DNA of 64,000 nt. It comes from Proteiniphilum propionicum. GTDB taxonomy: Bacteria; Bacteroidota; Bacteroidia; Bacteroidales; Dysgonomonadaceae. A model generated the notes under the pieces. The model saw nothing but the letters and a program-made list of their open reading frames with translations. It was not told the origin of the DNA and did no database searches. The stretch covers positions 3,514,501-3,578,500 of the forward strand of contig NZ_CP073586.1 in assembly GCF_022267555.1 (NCBI RefSeq). Direction: 5' to 3'. Both the position numbers and the translations under genes were made by a program. This document shows positions 43,249 to 56,262 of the stretch, piece by piece (the stretch's first letter is position 1; each line of letters starts with the position of its first letter).

Positions 43249-44295
43249 TCAATTGTTCTCAGGACGCAGTTTCCTGACTACTGCTCCGGCCTGCCACATC
43301 TCGCTTTCACGAAGGGCTTTAAGTTCAACCTCCAGCTTTTGGCGATAATCGGGTTGCGAGTTACTGTCAATAGAGCGCTGTGCTTCGTTGCCGCTTGCCA
43401 CCTCCTTATATAGTTTTTCGAAAACAGGTTTGGTAGCATCATGGAACGGCCCCATCCAGTCCAAAGCGCCACGTTGAGCTGTAGTGGAGCAGTTAGCATA
43501 CATCCAGTCCATCCCGTTTTCCGCAAATAAAGGCATAAGCGACTGGGTAAGCTCTTCCACTGTTTCGTTAAATGCTTCAGAAGGGGTATGCCCGTTCTCG
43601 CGCAACACTTCATATTGAGCCAGCAACAGTCCCTGGATAGCACCCATAAGCGTACCACGCTCGCCTGTAAGGTCGGAATATACCTCACGCTTGAAGTCGG
43701 TTTCAAACAGGTATCCTGATCCCACGCCAATACCGAGAGCTACCACGCGCTCATAAGCTTTTCCAGTGGCATCCTGAAAGATAGCATAGCTTGAGTTCAG
43801 TCCCCTGCCTTCAAGAAACATTTTTCGAAGGCTTGTACCCGAGCCTTTAGGTGCTACCAGTATTACATCAACATCGGGAGGAGGGACAATGCCAGTACGC
43901 TCTTTATAGGTAATGCCAAAACCATGTGAAAAATAGAGTGCTTTACCAGGTGTAAGATGCTTTTTTACTGTGCTCCAAAGCGTAATCTGTGCCGCATCTG
44001 ACAAGAGGTACTGGATAATTGTGCCGCGTTTGCATGCCTCCTCTATCTCAAAAAGGGTTTCTCCCGGAACCCATCCGTCGGCCACAGCCTTATCCCAGGT
44101 CTTGCTGTTCTTCCGTTGACCCACAATCACGTTAAACCCGTTATCACGCAGGTTGAGAGACTGTCCCGGCCCTTGTACTCCGTAACCGATTACTGCTATT
44201 GTTTCATTCTTCAACACTTCCTGAGCTTTGCTCAATGGAAACTCGTCGCGGGTAACTACATTTTCCTCTACCCTACCAAAATTCATTTTTGCCAT
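43249..44295 (-). CDS. ilvC: Ketol-acid reductoisomerase
   Basis: IlvC converts acetolactate or acetohydroxybutyrate to the dihydroxy acid using NAD(P)H and Mg2+, in valine, leucine and isoleucine synthesis. The ATG at 44295 gives MAKMNFGRVEENVV, the usual Bacteroidota start, and 348 residues; a GTG at 44325 is less likely. The Rossmann motif is VIGYGVQGPGQ, followed by QRKNSKTW in the cofactor-specificity loop. Metal-binding EVYSDLTGERGTLMG and late E residues are visible. It is the last gene of the cluster. Confidence 0.96.
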   Translation of the reverse strand: MAKMNFGRVEENVVTRDEFPLSKAQEVLKNETIAVIGYGVQGPGQSLNLRDNGFNVIVGQRKNSKTWDKAVADGWVPGETLFEIEEACKRGTIIQYLLSDAAQITLWSTVKKHLTPGKALYFSHGFGITYKERTGIVPPPDVDVILVAPKGSGTSLRKMFLEGRGLNSSYAIFQDATGKAYERVVALGIGVGSGYLFETDFKREVYSDLTGERGTLMGAIQGLLLAQYEVLRENGHTPSEAFNETVEELTQSLMPLFAENGMDWMYANCSTTAQRGALDWMGPFHDATKPVFEKLYKEVASGNEAQRSIDSNSQPDYRQKLEVELKALRESEMWQAGAVVRKLRPENN

Positions 44296-44442
44296 ATTTT
44301 TTTGACTATTTGAGTCAAGAGTCACAACTTAAACATTATATATGAGCAGTCTTTCAGATATCAAAAATCTTGATCACTGAGCTTTGTGACTGATTAAAAT
44401 GTGAGGTGTGTACTCATCGACCATTATTATAATATAATTAAT

Positions 44443-44544
44443 TTATCCTTTTATAAATCTCCTGCTAAAATTCTCTTTTACTGCAGAGGGACCAAAATAC
44501 ATAGTGATATTCAATGTATTAAAATAATCATTTTTGATATTCAT
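44443..44544 (-). CDS. Small open reading frame upstream of ilvC (33 codons)
   Basis: The frame runs from ATG at 44544 to TAA at 44443, in the 270-bp gap between ilvN and ilvC. Its core MYFGPSAVKENFSRR matches MYFGPIAIKETFSRR in the frame upstream of leuC, with LNI just before in both. Conservation at the peptide level suggests either a small protein or an element of coding origin. No function is known. In some Bacteroidales, as I recall, an acyl-ACP thioesterase gene occupies this gap. Confidence 0.4.
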   Translation of the reverse strand: MNIKNDYFNTLNITMYFGPSAVKENFSRRFIKG

Positions 44545-44564
44545 GGTTCCCGGAGCAGTCTCAT

Positions 44565-45131
44565 TTATTCATTCTCAACAATCCCGTTGAGTACTTGTTC
44601 ATGCTTTGCCAGCATATCGCTCAGCCGCTCCAATTTAGATTTCGTGATTGCAATCCTGCCGGAACGGACAAACTGCAAAACACCTATAGTTGAGGCCAGC
44701 TCATCAAAAAGCCCCTGTGTCTCGGCATAATGACCTGCTTTAAGAAACACAACACAATCTTTGGACACCTCCAGTATGCGGATGTTGTACTTCCTCACCA
44801 GATACTCTATGGAACCGTGTTCCAGCACCTTCTCGGTTGAGAGTTTGTAAAGCGCCAGCTCCTGGTGCACAAGATCTTCGTTGGTATTATAATAAGCCTT
44901 CAGAATATCCACACGTTTATCAATAAGCCGCACCAACTTCTTCATCACCTCCTCATCATCGGAAAAGGTGGTTATGGTAAACTTGTGAATCCCTTTTATT
45001 GCCGATGGCGAAACAGACAGTGTTTCTATATTCAACTGCCGACGGGTGAAAATAGTAGTGATCTGATTGAGTACGCCTACAGTATTTTCTGAAAATACTG
45101 TGATGGTATATAATGTTTTATTCTCATTCAT
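44565..45131 (-). CDS. ilvN: Acetolactate synthase, regulatory subunit
   Basis: IlvN is the small subunit of acetohydroxyacid synthase and mediates feedback inhibition by valine. The 188 residues contain an N-terminal ACT domain (YTITVFSENTVGVLNQITTIFTRRQLNIETLSVSPS) and a second ACT-like C-terminal half. It lies 33 bases downstream of ilvB. Confidence 0.93.
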   Translation of the reverse strand: MNENKTLYTITVFSENTVGVLNQITTIFTRRQLNIETLSVSPSAIKGIHKFTITTFSDDEEVMKKLVRLIDKRVDILKAYYNTNEDLVHQELALYKLSTEKVLEHGSIEYLVRKYNIRILEVSKDCVVFLKAGHYAETQGLFDELASTIGVLQFVRSGRIAITKSKLERLSDMLAKHEQVLNGIVENE

Positions 45132-45164
45132 AGTTCAGTTTTTATTAATTGTTTTCACTCACTT

Positions 45165-46925
45165 TTAAAGCTTGTGCCCGTTTCCGAGTAAAATGTCGGT
45201 AACGGTACCACCGGCGGGCACCATGGGATAAACCATCCCCTTTGTTTCCACTTTCACCTCCAGCAGATATGCCCCGTTATGCTCCAGCATCTCATTAATG
45301 GCTTCATCCAGCTCTTCACGCTTTGTCACCTTACGTCCTTTGATGTTGTAGGCATCAGCAATCTTGACGAAGTCCGGGTTTTTCAAGTGTGTTTCGGAAT
45401 ATCGCTCATCAAAAAACAATTCCTGCCATTGGCGCACCATCCCCAGATAACTATTGTTCAGAAGAATGATCTTTACATTCAAATTATATTCCATAATGGT
45501 TCCAAACTCCTGAATGGTCATCTGCAACCCTCCATCGCCCACAAAGATACAAACTGTTCTGTCAGGTGCACCGTATTTGGCACCAATTCCGGCAGGCAAC
45601 CCGAAACCCATCGTCCCCAGCCCGCCTGATGTGACTATGCTACGGGTTTTATTAAATCTGAAATAACGCGTTGCCATCATCTGATGTTGTCCCACATCGG
45701 TCACACATATAGCATTATTATGTGTCGCCTCGGTGATTTTGTTAACCACCTCGCCCATTTTTATTTCTCCATTTTCTGGATACAGTTCATTTCTGATAAT
45801 GCAATCATACTCTTTCTGTTCATAGGGTTGAAACTCAGCCAGCCACTTTGTATGCGATCGATTTTCCAGCAGGGCGGTAACTAAAGGAAGTGTTTTTTTT
45901 GCATCACCACGAACTTTGGCAGATGTCTTTACATTCTTATCTAGTTCAGCGGGATCGATATCGAAATGTATTACCTTTGCCTGTCTGGCATATGTCTTCA
46001 GATTTCCCGTCACACGATCGTCGAACCTCATCCCTATAGCGATCAACACATCACAACTGTTGGTCATCATGTTAGGCGCCACATTCCCATGCATCCCCAG
46101 CATTCCATGATTCAAATGGTGACCGGAGGGCATGGCTGACAATCCCAGTATGGTGGAACCGAACGGAATATCTCCTTTTTCCAGGAATGCACGCAACTCC
46201 TCCTCCGCATTTCCCAGAATAACACCCTGCCCTACCAGCGCAAAAGGTTTTTGGGCACTGTTTATAATGGCTGCCGCCTTCCGTATCTGATCAGTATCAG
46301 GCTCAGGAAAGGGTATATAACTCCGTAGGAAGGTAGTCTTCTGATAGAAATATTCGCATCTGTTTGTCTGCGCATCTTTGGCTATATCAAGCACTACAGG
46401 TCCGGGACGACCGCTAGATGCAATGTAAAATGCCCTGGAAACGGCCCATGCAATATCTTCCGTTCGCCTTATCTGGTAAGCCCATTTAGTTATGGGCTGT
46501 GTTACTCCAATTACATCGGCTTCCTGAAAAGCATCCGAGCCCAGCAAACCTGAAGCTACCTGTCCTGAGATGACTACCAGGGGAGTGCTATCCATCATTG
46601 CATCAGTGATACCGGTGATGGTGTTAGTTGCTCCGGGGCCCGACGTAACAAGTGCTACACCCACTTTTTCAGATACACGTGCATAACCCTGCGCAGCATG
46701 TACAGCACCCTGTTCGTGGCGCACCAGAATATGTTTTATCTTATCTTTATGATCGTACAAAGCATCGAACACGGGCATAATAGCTCCACCCGGGTACCCG
46801 AACATAGTATCCACTCCTTCCGCGATAAGCGAACGGATAAGGATCTCACTGCCCTGAATAGTCCCGGCTTCTTCCGAAGGGGACATCACTGTTTGGGTCT
46901 GTTTCTCTCTATTCATAATATTCAT
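45165..46925 (-). CDS. ilvB: Acetolactate synthase, catalytic subunit
   Basis: IlvB condenses pyruvate with pyruvate or 2-oxobutyrate using thiamine diphosphate. The 586 residues show the catalytic Glu region FGYPGGAIMP...HEQGAVHAAQGYAR (about 42-86) and the ThDP motif GDGGLQMTIQEFGTIMEYNL...NN (about 475-505). FAD-binding and central domains lie between. Two possible ATG starts lie three codons apart. It is in the cluster with ilvN immediately downstream. Confidence 0.96.
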   Translation of the reverse strand: MNIMNREKQTQTVMSPSEEAGTIQGSEILIRSLIAEGVDTMFGYPGGAIMPVFDALYDHKDKIKHILVRHEQGAVHAAQGYARVSEKVGVALVTSGPGATNTITGITDAMMDSTPLVVISGQVASGLLGSDAFQEADVIGVTQPITKWAYQIRRTEDIAWAVSRAFYIASSGRPGPVVLDIAKDAQTNRCEYFYQKTTFLRSYIPFPEPDTDQIRKAAAIINSAQKPFALVGQGVILGNAEEELRAFLEKGDIPFGSTILGLSAMPSGHHLNHGMLGMHGNVAPNMMTNSCDVLIAIGMRFDDRVTGNLKTYARQAKVIHFDIDPAELDKNVKTSAKVRGDAKKTLPLVTALLENRSHTKWLAEFQPYEQKEYDCIIRNELYPENGEIKMGEVVNKITEATHNNAICVTDVGQHQMMATRYFRFNKTRSIVTSGGLGTMGFGLPAGIGAKYGAPDRTVCIFVGDGGLQMTIQEFGTIMEYNLNVKIILLNNSYLGMVRQWQELFFDERYSETHLKNPDFVKIADAYNIKGRKVTKREELDEAINEMLEHNGAYLLEVKVETKGMVYPMVPAGGTVTDILLGNGHKL

Positions 46926-47029
46926 TGTTGATTGTTATAAAAAAGTACCGTTACGGGTAACTTTACACAATTAATTATGGACCTTATAACCCTAATCTAT
47001 AAAACTTAAGTGCTGAATTTAAAAAATAT

Positions 47030-48901
47030 CTAAATGATTCTCACTGCACCCAGATCGGCAGAACTGACAAAAGCAGCATAAGCCCTCAAAGCTTTGGACA
47101 CTTTCCTTTCCCGTATGGGACGGAAAGCCTCTTCTCCCCTGGCCTCCTCCGTCCGTCTTCTTTCGGCAAGCTCTTCGTCACTGACTTTCAAATTAATGGA
47201 TCGCCCGGGAATATCTATCTCAATAATATCTCCGTCACGTACCAGCCCTATATTACCACCGGCAGCAGCTTCAGGTGAGATGTGCCCTATGGAGAGTCCC
47301 GAGGTACCACCGGAGAAACGCCCGTCAGTAATAAGGGCACACTCTTTTCCCAGATGTTTTGCTTTGATGTAGGATGTGGGATATAGCATCTCCTGCATTC
47401 CCGGTCCCCCTTTAGGGCCTTCATAGATAATAACAACCACATCTCCTGCCCTGACATCTCCATTAAGGATAGCGCTACAAGCGTCTTCCTGTGAGTGATA
47501 CACTTTAGCTTTTCCATTAAACTTCCAGACACCCTCGTCCACGCCCGCTGTCTTCACCACACAGCCGTTGCGGGCAATATTACCCTTCAGGATAGCCAGT
47601 CCCCCATCTTTTGTATAAGCATGCTCCACACTACGGATGCAGCCATTTGCCCTGTCTGTATCGAGCTCTTTGAACCTCGCATTCTGCGATCCCATTACAA
47701 TATTATACCGGTTCCCGGGTGCGGACGAAAAGATTGTTACAGCCTCTTCCGAAGAATTGCCTGAAGTTATATCATATTTTCCAATGGCTTCCCCCAAAGT
47801 AAGGCCATCAGCACGGTGTACCGAGGTATTAACCAGTCCCGCCTTTGCCAGTTCGTTCATTATGCCCATAATTCCCCCAGCACGGTTCACATCCTGGATA
47901 TGGTACTTTTTTGTGTTGGGTGCCACCTTGCAGATACATGGGACGCGCCTCGAAAGCGCATCTATATCTTCGAGTGTGAAGTCGATCTCCCCTTCATGTG
48001 CGATAGCGAGCGTATGGAGTATTGTATTGGTAGAACCTCCCATGGCAATATCAAGCGTCATGGCGTTCAGGAACGCTTCACGGGTAGCGATATTTCTGGG
48101 AAGTACCGTTTCGTCGCCATCAAAATAGTATCGGTAAGCATTCTCCACTATCTGCCGTGCAGCTTTCACAAACAGTTCTTTCCTGTTGACATGAGTAGCC
48201 AGAACGGTTCCATTGCCTGGCAGTGCTAGTCCTATTGCCTCATTGAGACAGTTCATGGAGTTTGCGGTAAACATCCCGGAACAGGAGCCACAGGTGGGAC
48301 AGGCCAGCTGTTCCAATTGAGCTACACGTTCGCTGGAAACAGCCTCATCAGCCGACTCAATCATCGCGTCGATAAGGTCGATCTGTTCATCACCAATTAT
48401 TCCTGCTTCCATCGGCCCTCCCGAAACAAAAATAGCAGGTATATTCAACCGCATTGCAGCTATAAGCATCCCCGGAGTAATCTTGTCACAATTGCTTATG
48501 CAGACCATAGCATCTGCCTTATGGGCATTGACCATATATTCCACCGAATCGGCAATCAGGTCTCTCGACGGCAGGGAATACAACATACCGTCATGCCCCA
48601 TGGCAATGCCGTCGTCAATGGCGATAGTGTTAAACTCAGCTGCGAAACAGCCCAGCTTCTCAACCTCTTTTTTCACCAGCTGTCCTATTTCGTGCAGATG
48701 CACATGCCCCGGTACAAACTGAGTGAAGGAGTTAACTATAGCTATAATGGGTTTGCCCAACTGTTCGCGTGTCATACCATTGGCATGCCAGAGGGCCCTT
48801 GCCCCTGCCATACGGCGACCCCTGGTGCTCGTCGCACTACGTAGGCTACCCTTGCCTTCCGCAGTCATTTTTACGACTTCTTTATTATTGCCTATGTCCA
48901 T
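47030..48901 (-). CDS. ilvD: Dihydroxy-acid dehydratase
   Basis: IlvD dehydrates 2,3-dihydroxy acids to 2-keto acids in Val/Ile/Leu synthesis using an Fe-S cluster. From the ATG at 48901 it has 623 residues. The leuB stop and this start share a base (TAATG), so translation is coupled; the longer frame from 48934 is rejected. Cluster-binding cysteines lie in CISNCDK and [19 protein letters not shown], and the Mg2+/substrate residues in GGSTNT and GRFSGGTSG. Confidence 0.96.
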
Positions 48902-49974
48902 TATTTCTTTTCCTTTATATATCCAGCAATCCATTCTCCAACCTCACAGGTCTTATATGCTTTTCCTCCGTCTGCAATATCTTCTGTAACGACACCTGCT
49001 TCGAGGCTCGCATTTACAGCTTCTCTAATAATAGCTCCCTCGTCCATTAGGTTAAAGCCATACTCGAACATAAGTGCAGCAGAAAGAATCATTGCAATTG
49101 GATTAGCAATATTTTTACCTGCAGCCTGTGGATAGGATCCATGAATAGGCTCAAACAATGATGTATGCAGTCCGATGGACGCCGAAGGCAGCAGTCCCAG
49201 AGAGCCGGTAATCACAGAGGCCTCATCGGTTAGAATATCTCCGAACAGGTTCTCGGTAACCAGCACATCAAAACTTTTGGGCCATTGGATAATACGCATA
49301 GCCGCATTGTCGACGAAGAGATAGTTGGTCTCAATATCGGGGTACTGAAGAGAAAGCTCCCGTGCAATCTGCCGCCACAACCGCGAAGTAGCAAGCACAT
49401 TAGCTTTGTCCACTACCGTCACCTTTTTACGTCTCTGCCCGGCAAACCTGTATGCAAGATGCAAAACACGCTCCACCTCTTCACGGGTATATTGACATGT
49501 GTCGTACGCTGTATTGCCATCCTCGCTCCTACCCTGCGGGCGACCGAAATACATACCTCCGGTGAGCTCCCTAATGCATACAAAGTCGGTCCCTTCAACC
49601 AGTTCTGCGCGCAGCGGCGACTTATGAACAAGAGAGGGAAAGGTTACCACGGGACGGATATTCCCATACAGCCCCAGTTGTTTTCGCATTCTTAGCAATC
49701 CCTGTTCGGGGCGCACACTGGCATTAGGATTATTGTCATACTCCGGATCGCCAATGGCGCCAAAAAGTACTGCGTCACTCTTCATGCAAAGATTGTGTGT
49801 TTCAGCAGGATAAGGATCTTCCACGGCATCAATGGCGCATGCTCCCACAATACCTACACTGTAGGTTAATACATGTTCGAATTTTTCACAAACGGCTTTC
49901 GTAACTTCCAGCGCTTGAGTCATAATCTCCGGGCCTATTCCATCACCCGGCAATACAGCTATATTCAGTTTCAT
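48901..49974 (-). CDS. leuB: 3-isopropylmalate dehydrogenase
   Basis: LeuB oxidatively decarboxylates 3-isopropylmalate in leucine synthesis. The 357 residues show GDGIGPEI at the start, the substrate-binding [12 protein letters not shown], the metal and NAD region [15 protein letters not shown], and [20 protein letters not shown]. The stop codon overlaps the ilvD start. It may also act on methylmalate for the citramalate route to isoleucine. Confidence 0.96.
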
Positions 49975-50049
49975 TTTTTTTCTGATAATACTTTATACTT
50001 ATACTTGGCACCTATTCCATATTAAAGGTTCTGAAATCTGATGCTACCG

Positions 50050-51609
50050 TTACGGTAACTGCAGATAATTTATATTGGGAATACTCCCGCTTTCAATCAT
50101 GTTCAACATCTTCATTGTAGCCTTGATAGCCGCGACGGTCTGGTCTATGTCGAGTGCACGGGTTTTAAACACCTTGCCCTCATACTTCCATGTAATTACT
50201 GTCTGCACATATGCGTTTGTTTTCCCTCCCGGAGGGATAACCACCTCATAGTCGATCAACTCAGGTACAGGTTTGTTGAGCCTCCTGTAAATTTTGTACA
50301 TCGCCTTTGAGAATGCGTGATACTGCCCCTCTCCTGCTGCCGTCTCCTGGTATACTTCTCCTTTAATCGATATCTTCACCGTAGCCGTTGGCCGAAGCCC
50401 ATCGGTGAGCGTAAGTGAATAGTTAAGCATCAGGATATCCTTGTTATCAAGACCATTTTTCAACACATCGGAGACAATGTAAGGAAGCTCATCGAGATTT
50501 ACGATCTCTTTTTTATCGCCCAACTCAATAATGCGGGCTGTCACTTTCCTCGTTGCTTCGTCGTCAAGCTGAATACCTAGAGCCTCCAGATTCTTGGTAA
50601 TATTGGACCGACCTGAATTTTTCCCCAATGCATATTCACGATAGCGGCCGAAACGTTCAGGCATCAAATCGTTGAAATAGAGATTTTTCTTTTTGTCCCC
50701 ATCAGCATGAATGCCTGCCACCTGTGTAAATACATTGTCGCCTATGATAGGTTTATTTTTGGGAATACGTATCCCCGAATAGCTTTCAACAACCTTGCTC
50801 ACATTATAAAGATTAGACTCGTCAACATTGGTCCGCAGGCCCATATGGTCGTGTATCAGCGCAATCACGCTTGTGAGTGGAGCATTGCCCGCACGCTCTC
50901 CAAGCCCGTTCACGGTTACATGCACCCCCTGGGCACCTGCTTTTACAGCTTCATAAACATTGGCAACTGCCAGATCATAGTCGTTATGTGCATGAAAATC
51001 GAAATGAATTCCAGGATAACGTCCAATCATTTCGGAACAGAATTGTCTGGTTTCATCGGGGTTGAGCACTCCAAGCGTATCAGGAAGCATAAAACGCTTA
51101 ACAGGCTCATCTTTAAGTCCGTCCATCATATGGAACACATAATCTTTAGAATTGCGCATCCCGTTGGACCAATCCTCAAGGTATATATTGACAGTCAATC
51201 CCATCTCCTTTGCCGTAGAAATACTTTTCCTAACATCAGCCAGATGCTCTCCGGGGGTCTTGCTAAGCTGATAGGTGCAGTGCTCCAACGAACCTTTAAT
51301 AAGCAGGTTTATCACCTTGCACCCGGTATTGGCTATCCATTCCAGCGAAGAGGTTCCGTCAACAAATCCCAGCACCTCCAACCTTTCGATATAACCATGT
51401 GCTTGTGCCCATTGGGCTATCTTCTGAACTGAACGGAATTCACCCTCTGATACCCGGGCGGAGGCGATCTCCACCCTGTCTACTTTCAGCTCTTCCAGCA
51501 AAAGGCTCACAATACTCACCTTCTCCTGAGCCGCAAAGGATACCCCTGATGTCTGTTCACCATCACGCAGAGTAGTATCCATGATCTCTATCTTTCTTAC
51601 TTCTCCCAA
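50050..51609 (-). CDS. cimA: LeuA-family synthase, probably (R)-citramalate synthase
   Basis: This 519-residue protein has an HMGL-like TIM barrel ([16 protein letters not shown]..., FHAHNDYDLAVAN, NGLGERAGNAPL) and a C-terminal LeuA-type regulatory domain (about 390-510). It is a distant paralog of the LeuA encoded at 54112-55599, so the two probably make different products. Citramalate from pyruvate and acetyl-CoA would give a threonine-independent entry into isoleucine. No threonine dehydratase gene is in the cluster. The start is TTG at 51609: the first ATG (51582) would cut off the first barrel strand ([14 protein letters not shown]). Assignment as CimA is inference. Confidence 0.7.
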   Translation of the reverse strand: MGEVRKIEIMDTTLRDGEQTSGVSFAAQEKVSIVSLLLEELKVDRVEIASARVSEGEFRSVQKIAQWAQAHGYIERLEVLGFVDGTSSLEWIANTGCKVINLLIKGSLEHCTYQLSKTPGEHLADVRKSISTAKEMGLTVNIYLEDWSNGMRNSKDYVFHMMDGLKDEPVKRFMLPDTLGVLNPDETRQFCSEMIGRYPGIHFDFHAHNDYDLAVANVYEAVKAGAQGVHVTVNGLGERAGNAPLTSVIALIHDHMGLRTNVDESNLYNVSKVVESYSGIRIPKNKPIIGDNVFTQVAGIHADGDKKKNLYFNDLMPERFGRYREYALGKNSGRSNITKNLEALGIQLDDEATRKVTARIIELGDKKEIVNLDELPYIVSDVLKNGLDNKDILMLNYSLTLTDGLRPTATVKISIKGEVYQETAAGEGQYHAFSKAMYKIYRRLNKPVPELIDYEVVIPPGGKTNAYVQTVITWKYEGKVFKTRALDIDQTVAAIKATMKMLNMIESGSIPNINYLQLP

Positions 51610-51696
51610 AACAATCTATATTTACCGGTTTAGTTTGAAATGATCGTATAAGTAAATTGCCTTCAGCAGATGACCTTGCGGCAATTACACAAACAA

Positions 51697-52293
51697 TTAA
51701 TATACATAAGTACGACGTTTCTCATATTCTTCTATCTTCTCTCTGTTCGACAGCAGAAAATCAATATCATCCAATCCTTTCAGCAGGCACTCTTTCTTAT
51801 ATGGATTGATTTCAAACGATTCAATTTTACCCGTTTCATTATTAGATATTGTTTGCTCCTCTAAGTTTACCGTAACGGTAGCCTTCGCATTGCTGTCTGA
51901 TGCTGCAAACAGTCCACTTAGAAACTCTTCGCTTACAACAACCGGCAGGATACCGTTGTTGAGTGCATTATTGCGAAAGATATCGGCAAAAAAGCTCGAC
52001 ACCACCACCTTGAATCCATACCCTGCAATTGCCCAGGCAGCATGTTCCCGGCTACTTCCGCTCCCGAAATTCTTACCTGCCACTAATACCTGGCCTGTGT
52101 AGGCGGGATTATTGAGCACGAAACCGCTTCTTGGCCTGCCCTCCTTGTCATATCGCCAGTCGGCAAAAAGGTTGTTGCCAAATCCTTCCCGGGTGGTTGC
52201 TTTCAGAAAACGGGCCGGTATAATCTGGTCGGTATCCACATTTTCAATGGGAAGCGGAACATATGTTGATGTGATTGTTTGAAATTTTTCCAT
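51697..52293 (-). CDS. leuD: 3-isopropylmalate dehydratase, small subunit
   Basis: LeuD forms the swivelling domain of isopropylmalate isomerase with LeuC. The 198 residues show NVDTDQIIPARFLK (about 19-32) and NFGSGSSREHAAWA (about 75-88), which contact substrate. It lies 62 bases after leuC. Confidence 0.95.
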   Translation of the reverse strand: MEKFQTITSTYVPLPIENVDTDQIIPARFLKATTREGFGNNLFADWRYDKEGRPRSGFVLNNPAYTGQVLVAGKNFGSGSSREHAAWAIAGYGFKVVVSSFFADIFRNNALNNGILPVVVSEEFLSGLFAASDSNAKATVTVNLEEQTISNNETGKIESFEINPYKKECLLKGLDDIDFLLSNREKIEEYEKRRTYVY

Positions 52294-52355
52294 TTTTTAT
52301 TTTTTCTATCATTTACTATTTTTGTCGAATATCCGGGGACATTAGCCGCCTGAAG

Positions 52356-53738
52356 TTAGGGTTGGGTTATTTTTCCGTTTACAGCCGCCGCAGCCGCCAC
52401 CAGCGGACCCGCCAATATGGTCCTTGAACCGGGACCCTGGCGACCTTCGAAGTTGCGGTTAGATGTAGATACAGCATACTTCCCTGTAGGAACCTTATCA
52501 TCGTTCATAGCCAGACATGCAGAGCACCCTGGCTGCCGGAGTTCAAAACCTGCCTCTTTGAGGATCATGTCCAACCCTTCCGCCTCAATCTGCTTGCGTA
52601 CCTGCCAGCTGCCGGGTACCAACCAGGCCGTTACATTATCGGCTTTCTTTTTCCCTTTAACATAGTTGGCGAACACCCTGAAGTCCTCAATACGCCCGTT
52701 GGTACAACTACCAAGAAAGACATAATCTATCTGTTTCCCTTCAAGTTTCTCTCCTGGAACAAATCCCATGTAATTCAGTGATTTTTTGAATGATATTTTT
52801 CCTGTCTCATCGATATCTTCCAATAGCGGTATGTTGCCATCGACGGGCATTCCCATTCCCGGATTGGTTCCATAGGTAATCATCGGACGAATCTGTGATA
52901 CATCAATCGTAATCTCTTTATCGAAAATAGCTCCTTCATCAGTCTTCAACGTTTTCCAATAATCCACTGCCTTGTTCCATTTCTCTCCCTTTGGAGCAAA
53001 CTTGCGTCCCTTAACATAACTAAACGTTATTTCATCGGGAGCGATAAGCCCTCCTCGTGCACCCATTTCAATACTCATGTTACAAAGTGTCATCCGTTGC
53101 TCCATTGTTAAATGGCGAACAGCCTCGCCGGCATATTCTACAAAATATCCCGTGGCACCTCCGGTTGTTAGCTGTGAGATCATATAAAGCGCCATATCTT
53201 TGGCACTCACATTATCATTCAACTTACCTTCAAAATTGATGCGCATGGTCCCGGGCCGTGACTGCAGGATACATTGAGACGCCAGCACCATTTCTACCTC
53301 GCTGGTACCAATACCAAAAGCGATGGCTCCAAAGGCTCCGTGTGTAGAGGTGTGACTGTCTCCGCACACGATGGTCATTCCCGGCTGAGTATAACCATTT
53401 TCCGGGCCTATAACATGTACAATACCGTTCCCGGGATCGTTGAGCCCATAATAGGTCAATCCGAAATCCCTGGCGTTTTTTGCGAGGGTGTCTACCTGAA
53501 AACGTGAAATCTGATCACGGATTGGCTTATCCTGCCCGATGGTAGGAATGTTGTGATCAGCCGTAAGGGTGGTCTGGTCAGGCCGGAATACTTGCAGCCC
53601 TCGTGCACGAAGGCCTGCAAATGCTTGGGGACTTGTCACCTCGTGACATAAATGTCTGTCTATATACAATTGAGTGGGGCCATCTTTCACTGTGGTAACC
53701 ACGTGAGCATCCCATATCTTGTCAAAAAGAGTTTTCAT
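52356..53738 (-). CDS. leuC: 3-isopropylmalate dehydratase, large subunit
   Basis: LeuC is the aconitase-like Fe-S subunit that isomerises 2- to 3-isopropylmalate. The 460 residues match the family. Cluster cysteines are in FLGSCTNGR and GCSACLAMN, with [23 protein letters not shown] near 125-147. A small frame with unknown role ends 28 bases upstream. It may work with both isopropylmalate and citramalate. Confidence 0.95.
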
Positions 53739-53766
53739 TATTTAATTCATTCTAAAAATTTAATTC

Positions 53767-53886
53767 TTATTTAAGATCTCCCCGCACCACTGAATATAAA
53801 TTCTTTTTTTTGTTTTCAACTTTGAGTCGCCTGCTAAAAGTCTCCTTAATTGCAATCGGACCAAAATACATATTAATATTTAACAT
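53767..53886 (-). CDS. Small open reading frame upstream of leuC (39 codons)
   Basis: The frame opens at ATG 53886 (or 53871) and ends at TAA 53767, 28 bases before leuC. Its core MYFGPIAIKETFSRR is shared with the small frame upstream of ilvC. The frame extends upstream without an ATG through the repeat at 53895-53978 (INEDLTKHYN) to a TAG. It could be a leader peptide, a small protein or a remnant of a mobile gene. Confidence 0.4.
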   Translation of the reverse strand: MLNINMYFGPIAIKETFSRRLKVENKKKNLYSVVRGDLK

Positions 53887-53894
53887 ATTATAGT

Positions 53895-53978
53895 GCTTCG
53901 TTAAATCTTCATTTATAACACTAACAGCCAATAAGTTATGCTAGATCCTCAAAGATGCCATACTCTGTTGATATTCAG
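53895..53978 (-). repeat. Dispersed repeat, copy 2 (about 85 bp)
   Basis: By eye about 83% identical over 85 positions to 12925-13008, same orientation. It adjoins the small frame upstream of leuC and reads in phase with it. Confidence 0.7.
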
Positions 53979-54111
53979 CAAATTAAAAAAATCCACCGAA
54001 GTATTGTTACAAACAATCTTTTTAGATATTCAGCGCTTTCGGAACAGATTTGACTATCAAGCTGACTTAAATTCTATTTAATCACCAGGAGTAATTAGCA
54101 GCTTTTCTCTT

Positions 54112-55599
54112 CTATTCAACAAACTTATTCACCGCATCGATAAACGCTTCTACCGAGGCTGCCACGATATCGGTATTTGCAGCGAAGCCGTAATACAACA
54201 TATCGTTGTGTTCAACCTGCATATGAACTTTGCCAACGTCATCACTACCATGATCGATTGCCTGGATGAGAAACTCCTGAATTCTTATTTTTCTTCGAAT
54301 AATATTTTTGACTGCCCTGATAGCTGCATCAACCGGGCCATTACCGGTTGCAGTAGCCTCGAAACGTTCGCCGGCAATATTCAAGCCGATACTTGCCACA
54401 TCGCGGACTCCTATTCCGCATACTACCTGCAGATATTCCACTTTTATCCTGTGCAAACGTGCCTCTTTACCCACAAGCATAAGTATATCATCGTCGTTCA
54501 CACTCTTTTTCCTGTCTGCCAGCTCCAGAAAGTTCTGGTAGACCTTATCCAGTTCTTCGCCATCGAGCTTTACTCCAAGGAGCGACAAACGGTTTTTCAG
54601 TGCGGCACGTCCGCTGCGGGCGGTCAGCACAATAGCATTATCATCGATACCAACATCCCTGGGATTAATTATCTCATAAGTTTCTACATTTTTCAATACC
54701 CCATCCTGATGTATTCCGGAAGAGTGTGCAAACGCGTTTCTTCCCACGATCGCCTTGTTGGGCTGTACCGGCATATTCATCAAGCTTGACACCAGACGGC
54801 TTGTAGAGTAGATATGATGTGTATTGATATTGGTTTCGAATCCCCTGTCTTTATGGCTTTTGAGTGCCATCACCACCTCTTCGAGAGAGGTATTGCCGGC
54901 CCTCTCGCCAATACCGTTAACCGTTACCTCTATCTGCCTAGCTCCGTTGATAACCCCGGCAATTGTATTGGCGGTAGCCATTCCCAGATCCTGGTGACAG
55001 TGTGTTGATAATATCGCGTTTTTTAAATCAACGTTCTCAACAAGGTATCTTATTTTCGCTCCAAACTCATCGGGGAAACAATAACCGGTAGTATCGGGGA
55101 TATTTACAACAGTAGCACCCGCATTCACCACTGCCTGTACTACGCGGGCAAGGTACTCATTGCATGTACGGCCCGCATCCTCGGCATAGAACTCAACATC
55201 GTCGACAAAACGCCGGGCATACTTCACCGCACTCACCGCCCGCTCAATGATATCTTCCCTATTAGAATTGAATTTGTGCCTAATGTGATAATCTGAAGTA
55301 CCGATCCCTGTGTGAATACGTTTGCGTTTTGCATATTTCAGGGCTTCGGCAGCTACTTCTATGTCTTTCTCCACGGCACGGGTAAGTGCACAAATAACCG
55401 GCCAGGTCACAGCCTTGGCGATCTCAACTACCGAGTTGAAATCGCCGGGACTTGAGACCGGGAAACCGGCTTCAATCACGTCTACCCCCAACAGTTCGAG
55501 AGCCTGGGCAATCTGAATCTTCTCTATTGTGTTCAACTGGCAGCCGGGGACCTGTTCGCCATCTCTCAACGTTGTGTCAAATACATAAATTCGCTCCAT
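54112..55599 (-). CDS. leuA: 2-isopropylmalate synthase
   Basis: LeuA condenses 2-oxoisovalerate with acetyl-CoA, the first committed step of leucine synthesis. The 495 residues show [13 protein letters not shown] (about 9-21), [26 protein letters not shown] and the LeuA dimer/regulatory domain at about 370-495, the site of leucine inhibition. It is the first gene of the cluster and sits behind a promoter and an attenuator-like leader. Confidence 0.96.
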
Positions 55600-55632: not shown

Positions 55633-55665
55633 AAAAAAAAACCTTTCCCACGTGGTGAGAAAAGT
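55633..55665 (-). terminator. Attenuator terminator in the leuA leader
   Basis: On the minus strand ACTTTTC (55665-55659) pairs with GAAAGGT, and CC pairs with GG around an ACGT loop, with TCA bulged. Nine T follow directly. It lies before the leuA ATG, inside the leader, so it must be conditional. Its 5' arm contains TCTCACC (55660-55654), complementary to GGTGAGA at 55715-55709. Confidence 0.75.
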
Positions 55666-55708
55666 TATCTGTATTTTTACTGTCTTTGTAAATGTATCGA
55701 TATGCCAG

Positions 55709-55715
55709 TCTCACC
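55709..55715 (-). promoter_or_regulatory. Antiterminator half overlapping the leader peptide stop codon
   Basis: GGTGAGA on the minus strand is perfectly complementary to TCTCACC in the terminator 5' arm. It contains the UGA stop of the leader peptide. A ribosome at the stop would cover it and let the terminator form; a ribosome stalled upstream at Ile/Leu/Val codons would leave it free. Confidence 0.65.
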
Positions 55716-55773
55716 CTCCGAAGTTTTCCAGAAGTAGAATAGAAATGACTAGAATATCTATTTGATTATACAC
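55711..55773 (-). CDS. Ile/Leu/Val-rich leader peptide of the leu-ilv cluster
   Basis: A 20-codon frame from GTG at 55773 to TGA at 55711, about 30 bases after the predicted transcription start. The core IDILVISILLL contains nine branched-chain codons (four Ile, four Leu, one Val) among eleven residues. This composition, its place before the biosynthetic genes and the terminator downstream match transcription attenuation leaders. No ATG is available in frame, so GTG initiation is inferred. It is too short for standard gene callers. Confidence 0.75.
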   Translation of the reverse strand: MYNQIDILVISILLLENFGG

Positions 55774-55811
55774 TTTACTTACAGTTTGAATGATTTTCTT
55801 GCTTAATGGTT

Positions 55812-55843
55812 GCAAAGTAAAAGCAAAAATCTATATCTGCAAA
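55812..55843 (-). promoter_or_regulatory. Promoter of the leu-ilv cluster
   Basis: The minus strand has TTTG (55843-55840), a 19-base spacer and TTACTTTGC (55820-55812). This matches the -33/-7 consensus with one mismatch (T for A). The predicted start gives a leader of about 200 bases holding the peptide and terminator. Confidence 0.6.
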
Positions 55844-56262
55844 ATTTTTTCACAATTTTCTTTGAAAAAAATTGATCTTGTACAATAAAAAATATTTTTT
55901 TCACCATTTAACCACGTCTTCCTTGCACAGCACAAGTAAAAAATATTATCGTGAAACAGTAAATCATATTTCAGCAAACACCTTTAAAACATAGTAAAAA
56001 TGGTATTTAAAAGAATTTGTCCGGGTCAATTTTTAAAGCATTAAACCCGGACAAATATATTCTTAGCTTAGAAAAAGATTGGAGATTCCCTCTTCTTTAA
56101 TTTTAAAACAGTTCGTTAGAAAAGTCTCAATATATTTGAATGCCAATATTGTCAACGGAATAAATCTCATCGAGATTCTATATCCATACAAGCTACTATC
56201 TGTGGTTAAATTGGATATCTACCGGATAATTGATAATAAAACATCCGGAATAAATTGACCAA
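55844..56262. other. Spacer between nqrF and the leu-ilv promoter
   Basis: This is AT-rich sequence with two inverted repeats: a strong one at 56015-56056, and a weaker CCGGAT/ATCCGG pair near 56222-56247, just after nqrF. No gene was seen. Confidence 0.5.
56015..56056 (-). terminator. 12-bp perfect inverted repeat, possible nqr operon terminator
   Basis: ATTTGTCCGGGT at 56015-56026 is exactly complementary to ACCCGGACAAAT at 56045-56056, with an 18-base loop. On the minus strand TTCTTTT follows. It lies about 210 bases after nqrF, so it could end the nqr transcript or be an unrelated structure. Confidence 0.5.

Follow-up and report, generated by a model that had tools for sequence, protein, structure and literature searches.

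The 64,000-nucleotide stretch of the Proteiniphilum propionicum genome analysed here (the window) carries a leu-ilv gene cluster on its minus strand. The region ahead of its first gene, leuA, raises the question of whether a short reading frame and a terminator found there act together as an amino-acid attenuator. Our comparison of this region with its relatives indicates that leuA is very probably controlled by a leader-peptide transcription attenuator located here, whose control probably extends to the leu-ilv cluster. The region comprises the following features (window coordinates).

55813-55844, minus strand: predicted promoter of the Bacteroidota type, read from the sequence, with boxes conserved in 36 genus leaders
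55844-55840, minus strand: -33 box TTTTG, conserved across the genus
55819-55813, minus strand: -7 box TACTTTG, conserved across the genus
55711-55773, minus strand: leader peptide frame MYNQIDILVISILLLENFGG, 20 codons, from GTG at 55773 to the stop TGA at 55711, kept in 36/36 genus leaders
55729-55755, minus strand: control codons ATT CTA GTC ATT TCT ATT CTA CTT CTG (I L V I S I L L L)
55752-55750 and 55737-55735, minus strand: the two CTA codons of this leader
55747-55758, minus strand: 5' arm of the protector stem, GATATTCTAGTC, from leader codons 6-9 (predicted fold and alignment of 36 leaders)
55699-55710, minus strand: 3' arm of the protector stem, GACTGGCATATC, sharing 2 nt with the antiterminator (predicted fold and alignment)
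55715-55734, minus strand: inner hairpin CTTCTGGA / TTCGGAGG, enclosed by the protector stem (alignment of 36 leaders)
55709-55715, minus strand: antiterminator segment GGTGAGA with the leader stop TGA inside, invariant in 36 genus leaders and covarying across families
55654-55660, minus strand: TCTCACC, the terminator 5' arm plus the first loop base, complement of GGTGAGA
55633-55666, minus strand: predicted intrinsic terminator, a 12-bp stem (55666-55640) followed by nine T (55641-55633)
54112-55599, minus strand: leuA, 2-isopropylmalate synthase, first gene after the leader (NCBIfam NF002086 and TIGR00973 above cut-off)

Architecture of the leader

The original prediction had placed a promoter, a short frame, GGTGAGA and a terminator on this strand, and all four are present where it placed them. 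It overlooked the protector (1:2) hairpin. The promoter spacing from TTG to TAC is 20 nt; a sigma-70 promoter scan was set aside as uninformative for Bacteroidota. The terminator is the best intrinsic-terminator match of the region in a terminator scan. A 34-codon frame from TTG at 55815 was rejected, and GTG at 55773 is preferred because the homologous start in relatives lies at this position. That start is ATG in 35/35 relatives (shifted by one codon in L034 and L035), which supports the GTG-started frame of 20 codons proposed originally.

Taken by itself, the Ile/Leu/Val-rich frame is no more than suggestive, because 17 of 2000 dinucleotide shuffles of this leader (~1%) also give a short frame with at least 8/10 Ile/Leu/Val. 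That such frames are not rare favours an alternative in which the terminator is constitutive or controlled by a factor and the short frame either arises by chance or encodes a separate small protein. Terminators in the 5' leaders of Bacteroides do serve other uses, for example in the UpxY-controlled capsule operons (PMC7819879). Folding of the whole leader gave z-scores of -3.15 and -3.79 against shuffles. The pattern GGTGAGA-N35-60-TCTCACC occurs at a single site in the 3.9-Mb genome, which is a single contig, and this site is the leuA leader (read on both strands); a control pattern had zero occurrences in the same genome.

Conservation within Proteiniphilum

We recovered 36 leuA leaders from Proteiniphilum, including the one described here. 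All 36 keep the start codon, the frame, the core DILVISILLL or a near variant, the TGA within GGTGAGA, the pairing and the terminator. Leaders that retain the terminator and have lost the frame or the pairing were sought among these relatives, and none was found. Leader length is 20, 21 or 22 codons and indels comprise whole codons only (L003, L020, L025, L028, L032, and L033); the spacer between stop and terminator varies in length in all three phases. The mean minor-base fraction is 0.36 in the spacer past the frame versus 0.06-0.15 within the frame.

Retention of frame and stop with whole-codon indels in all these leaders argues against a chance frame next to an unrelated terminator. Within the frame, codons 2-5 vary freely and codons 7-15 are nearly invariant, third bases included. 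An N terminus that varies freely, combined with control codons fixed to the third base, is unlike a functional protein and argues against a separate small protein. At the level of sequence, the conservation in relatives removes the doubt left by the chance tests. The strong structure and the third-base conservation of the core would also favour a different alternative, in which the leader RNA senses the amino acid or a tRNA directly, in the manner of a riboswitch or T-box, with translation incidental.

The helices of the 36 leaders are closely maintained, with 94-100% of cells paired per helix, compared with 38-51% overall when the partners were slid by 1-3 columns. The protector stem is paired in 97.6-99.1% of cells (about half in the slid controls) and the terminator stem in 99.8%. 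In the inner hairpin, one pair is altered on both sides, from G-C to A-U, in 2 sequences, and a GU/AU exchange is present in 16/36 leaders. The pair formed by TCTCACC and the stop-containing GGTGAGA is invariant in all 36. Because of this invariance, covariation of the antiterminator rests on comparison across families.

Comparison across Bacteroidales

In an order sample filtered by leuA similarity and containing many draft genomes, a frame with at least 7/10 Ile/Leu/Val was identified in 57/101 leuA upstream regions outside the genus versus 6% of shuffles. Approximately 40% of the sampled leuA genes outside the genus are without a clear leader, some of them because leuA is internal to an operon. 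Most named Bacteroidales loci carry an Ile/Leu/Val frame; the leader peptide reads MNQSFIHILLCGIIILLAKVGGSECRA in Bacteroides fragilis, where an in-frame TTG also exists farther upstream, and MERNIQNSLIISLSIILLWERDGK in Parabacteroides. The covariance model built from the genus leader matches 88/101 genomes of the family. Carriers of the leu leader include gut Bacteroides, Parabacteroides, Dysgonomonas and Proteiniphilum.

For 120 distinct leaders with a terminator, we determined the best helix that the segment following the core can form with the 5' arm and loop of the terminator. These leaders were picked by Ile/Leu/Val content, a choice that leaves the pairing test unbiased and biases frequency counts. 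The mean helix score was 20.7 with a leader's own partner, 15.0 with the partner of a dissimilar species and 13.8 with a shuffled partner, and a score of at least 18 was reached by 82%, 16% and 8%, respectively. The arm pairs differ among lineages and match within each, as in GGTGAGA/TCTCACC, GGAAGTGAG/CTCACTTCC and GAGAATGGT/GCCATTCTC; further lineage-specific matching pairs are GAAGCGAG/CTCGCTTC and GGTAGTGAGA/TCTTGCTACC. The predicted antiterminator and terminator arms therefore change together across families. These are the compensatory changes that had been expected from an alignment of relatives, and they fall between families. With the parts kept in 36/36 genus leaders and the arms covarying across the order, the classic geometry of amino-acid attenuation proposed for this locus is supported.

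Covariation of the arms across families also speaks against a chance frame beside an unrelated terminator. The core remains Leu/Ile-rich in other families despite a changed nucleotide sequence, and this retention of coding while nucleotides change argues against direct sensing by the RNA. Also against it, no Rfam family, T-box included, matches the window at gathering score, and the leader locus L219 is without an Rfam match at E up to 1. Direct sensing is thus extremely unlikely.

Residues and codons

The original prediction named Ile, Leu and Val codons as the sensed set. In 105 Bacteroidales leu leaders from outside the genus, the 805 Ile/Leu/Val codons comprise 404 Leu, 384 Ile and 17 Val. 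Leu and Ile are thus retained and Val is not: the residues sensed by the leu leader would be Leu and Ile, with Val nearly absent order-wide. Proteiniphilum, with its conserved Val codon, is the exception to this scarcity.

The choice of codons is also skewed. In the genus, the rare codon CTA encodes 50% of the leucines in leaders versus 4% in eleven neighbouring genes; in other families it encodes 35% versus 2% in leuA bodies. ATT and GTC are likewise enriched in leaders over gene usage. Base pairing may account for the presence of the GTC and the first CTA, both of which fall inside the protector stem. The second CTA is outside this stem, so tuning of the leader by a minor leucine tRNA would be a fair reading, with the skew hinting at the identity of the sensed tRNA.

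Leaders at other amino-acid operons

Other amino-acid operons of the same genome are preceded by leaders with different peptides. The peptide MTNLLINGYWWRYLLLKMS, with a WW pair, lies before trpB and is followed by a terminator (G000:C1:803660-803722, minus strand; locus L242). This leader is of the known Bacteroid-trp type, and the RF01692 matches themselves, at gathering score, come from the trpB leaders of L236 and L237. Relatives' trpB leaders encode WW peptides such as MNISFTNGYWWRNLQLIQS. A histidine leader, MKANMFHHHHFHTCNRAS, with HHHH, lies before hisG (L220:1325-1381, plus strand), precedes the terminator GACCCGTCTG..CAGACGGGTTTTTT and matches Rfam His_leader weakly, at 33 bits, below gathering. 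The covariance model of the leu leader also matches sites outside leuA, before ilvD and before trpB. In L234, where ilvD is apart from leuA, ilvD has its own Leu/Ile/Val leader, MTNCFLHILLVIDILLVGQNK, with a terminator, and the leader of L241 is near-identical; both loci (genus g26) are probably from Dysgonomonas.

The content of these predicted peptides follows the product of the operon, as classical attenuation predicts and the alternatives do not. This tracking leaves very little room for a chance frame or a separate small protein beside a constitutive or factor-controlled terminator, which we regard as very unlikely.

Folding and proposed mechanism

When the part covered by a ribosome was removed before folding, the leader of P. 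propionicum formed the antiterminator in the stalled state and the terminator both in the stop state and as free RNA. This leader switches at equilibrium (0.11 versus 0.97). In relatives with a stalled ribosome, the terminator has a mean equilibrium probability of 0.72 in the genus and 0.86 elsewhere. For most relatives, equilibrium folding of complete leaders does not tell a stalled ribosome from one that has finished, as the terminator is the more stable structure. Since the terminator is favoured in every state at equilibrium in most relatives, the modelled switch must be kinetic, decided as the RNA emerges, as in known systems.

We replaced the equilibrium test with folding of the leader before the terminator 3' arm exists. 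In this setting, TCTCACC of P. propionicum is held with a probability of 1.00 in the stalled state and 0.02 at the stop. Folding of this kind lends weak support, because the shuffled-segment control is high (0.63 in the genus), and we place weight on the contrast within the P. propionicum leader and on the cross-family helix test.

Based on this, we propose the following course of events for a leader-peptide attenuator. Transcription would start ~35 nt ahead of the leader frame. When charging of Leu- or Ile-tRNA falls short, a ribosome would stall in the run from ATT to CTA CTT CTG and open the protector stem, freeing GGTGAGA. GGTGAGA is located 22, 19 and 16 nt downstream of CTA13, CTT14 and CTG15, respectively, and most likely lies at or past the edge of a ribosome stalled at these codons. 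The freed segment would capture TCTCACC on its emergence, which would prevent the terminator from forming and allow transcription of leuA. With charged tRNAs, the ribosome would reach the TGA in GGTGAGA and cover this segment; TCTCACC would then pair with its terminator partner and transcription would stop. If the leader is left untranslated, the protector hairpin would sequester the antiterminator region, giving termination by default. Promoter use, translation of the frame, stalling, termination or read-through, and ribosome-polymerase coupling are inferred steps of this scheme.

The frame could instead act on leuA through translation, by reinitiation or mRNA stability, and leader frames have been proposed to raise translation by short-distance reinitiation (PMC4833913); there is hardly any likelihood of this here, as the leader stop is ~110 nt from leuA versus the 11-14 nt spacing reported for Bacteroidetes (PMC4833913), with a conserved T-run intrinsic terminator in between.

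Relation to known systems

The leader combines the elements that define leader-peptide attenuators, as judged from its sequence: a predicted translated frame matched to the operon, a terminator, a mutually exclusive antiterminator and a protector hairpin. No Rfam family matches it at gathering score or at E up to 1. Within the phylum, the closest system already catalogued is Bacteroid-trp (RF01692), the Bacteroidetes tryptophan peptide leader (PMC2864571). Both have a peptide carrying the operon's amino acid and a terminator before a biosynthetic operon; Bacteroid-trp has Trp codons and precedes trp genes, whereas the leu leader has no Trp codon and is not matched by that family.

The enterobacterial leuL (Rfam Leu_leader, RF00512) and ilvL leaders similarly place Leu/Ile codons ahead of the operon and alternate between antiterminator and terminator. 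Rare CUA codons are present in enterobacterial leuL. In contrast to these leaders, which have no covariance-model similarity to ours (Leu_leader matches neither the window at gathering nor L219 at E up to 1), the protector stem here draws on some of the control codons for its own pairing. Little use of Shine-Dalgarno sequences is expected in Bacteroidota, unlike in enterobacterial leaders. Attenuators outside Proteobacteria, perhaps in Bacteroidetes too, were reportedly predicted by Vitreschak et al. in 2004 and Lopatovskaya et al. in 2010.

Within the same phylum, 'strong clues' for leader-peptide attenuation before amino-acid operons were described in Flavobacterium psychrophilum, a member of a different class, in a passage that names neither leuA nor a sequence (PMC9723704). 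Long leaders of B. thetaiotaomicron hold frames 'reminiscent of leader peptides' (PMC7366714). The attenuator of ilvBNC in Corynebacterium glutamicum, characterised by mutation, likewise governs branched-chain amino acid genes, although that system belongs to Actinobacteria and to ilv genes (PMC11857589).

Our literature search, which covered mostly papers available without subscription, found no publication on a Bacteroidales leu leader. The mechanism is a long-known textbook principle, and its widespread leu version in Bacteroidales seems to be uncatalogued. Bacteroidota thereby gain a leucine-type leader-peptide attenuator that is absent from Rfam and too short for gene callers. More broadly, we consider it reasonably likely that Bacteroidales, whose translation initiation mostly dispenses with Shine-Dalgarno pairing, run ribosome-coupled attenuators order-wide (leu, ilv, trp, and his), with the CTA skew reflecting a response to a minor leucine tRNA. 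Because attenuation needs a ribosome close behind the polymerase, the leu leaders could serve as natural reporters of transcription-translation coupling in a phylum where coupling has been little tested.

Downstream genes and probable reach of control

The genes following leuA on the minus strand are as follows.

43249-53738, minus strand: leuC, leuD, a citramalate synthase-like gene, leuB, ilvD, ilvB, probable ilvN and probable ilvC
44565-45131, minus strand: probable ilvN, from reading of the translation
43249-44325, minus strand: probable ilvC, from reading of the translation

The genes from leuC through ilvB were identified by NCBIfam. The gap between leuA and leuC is unusually long, at 373 nt (53739-54111), and no terminator-like site was found on its minus strand. 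It is plausible that the attenuator governs the whole leu-ilv cluster beyond leuA. A TATTTTG inside the gap resembles the -7 box, and an internal promoter is possible there.

The cluster also contains a second LeuA-like gene (50050-51609), which is closest to the Leptospira-type citramalate synthase (CimA), below the family cut-off. Its presence suggests a route to isoleucine through citramalate.
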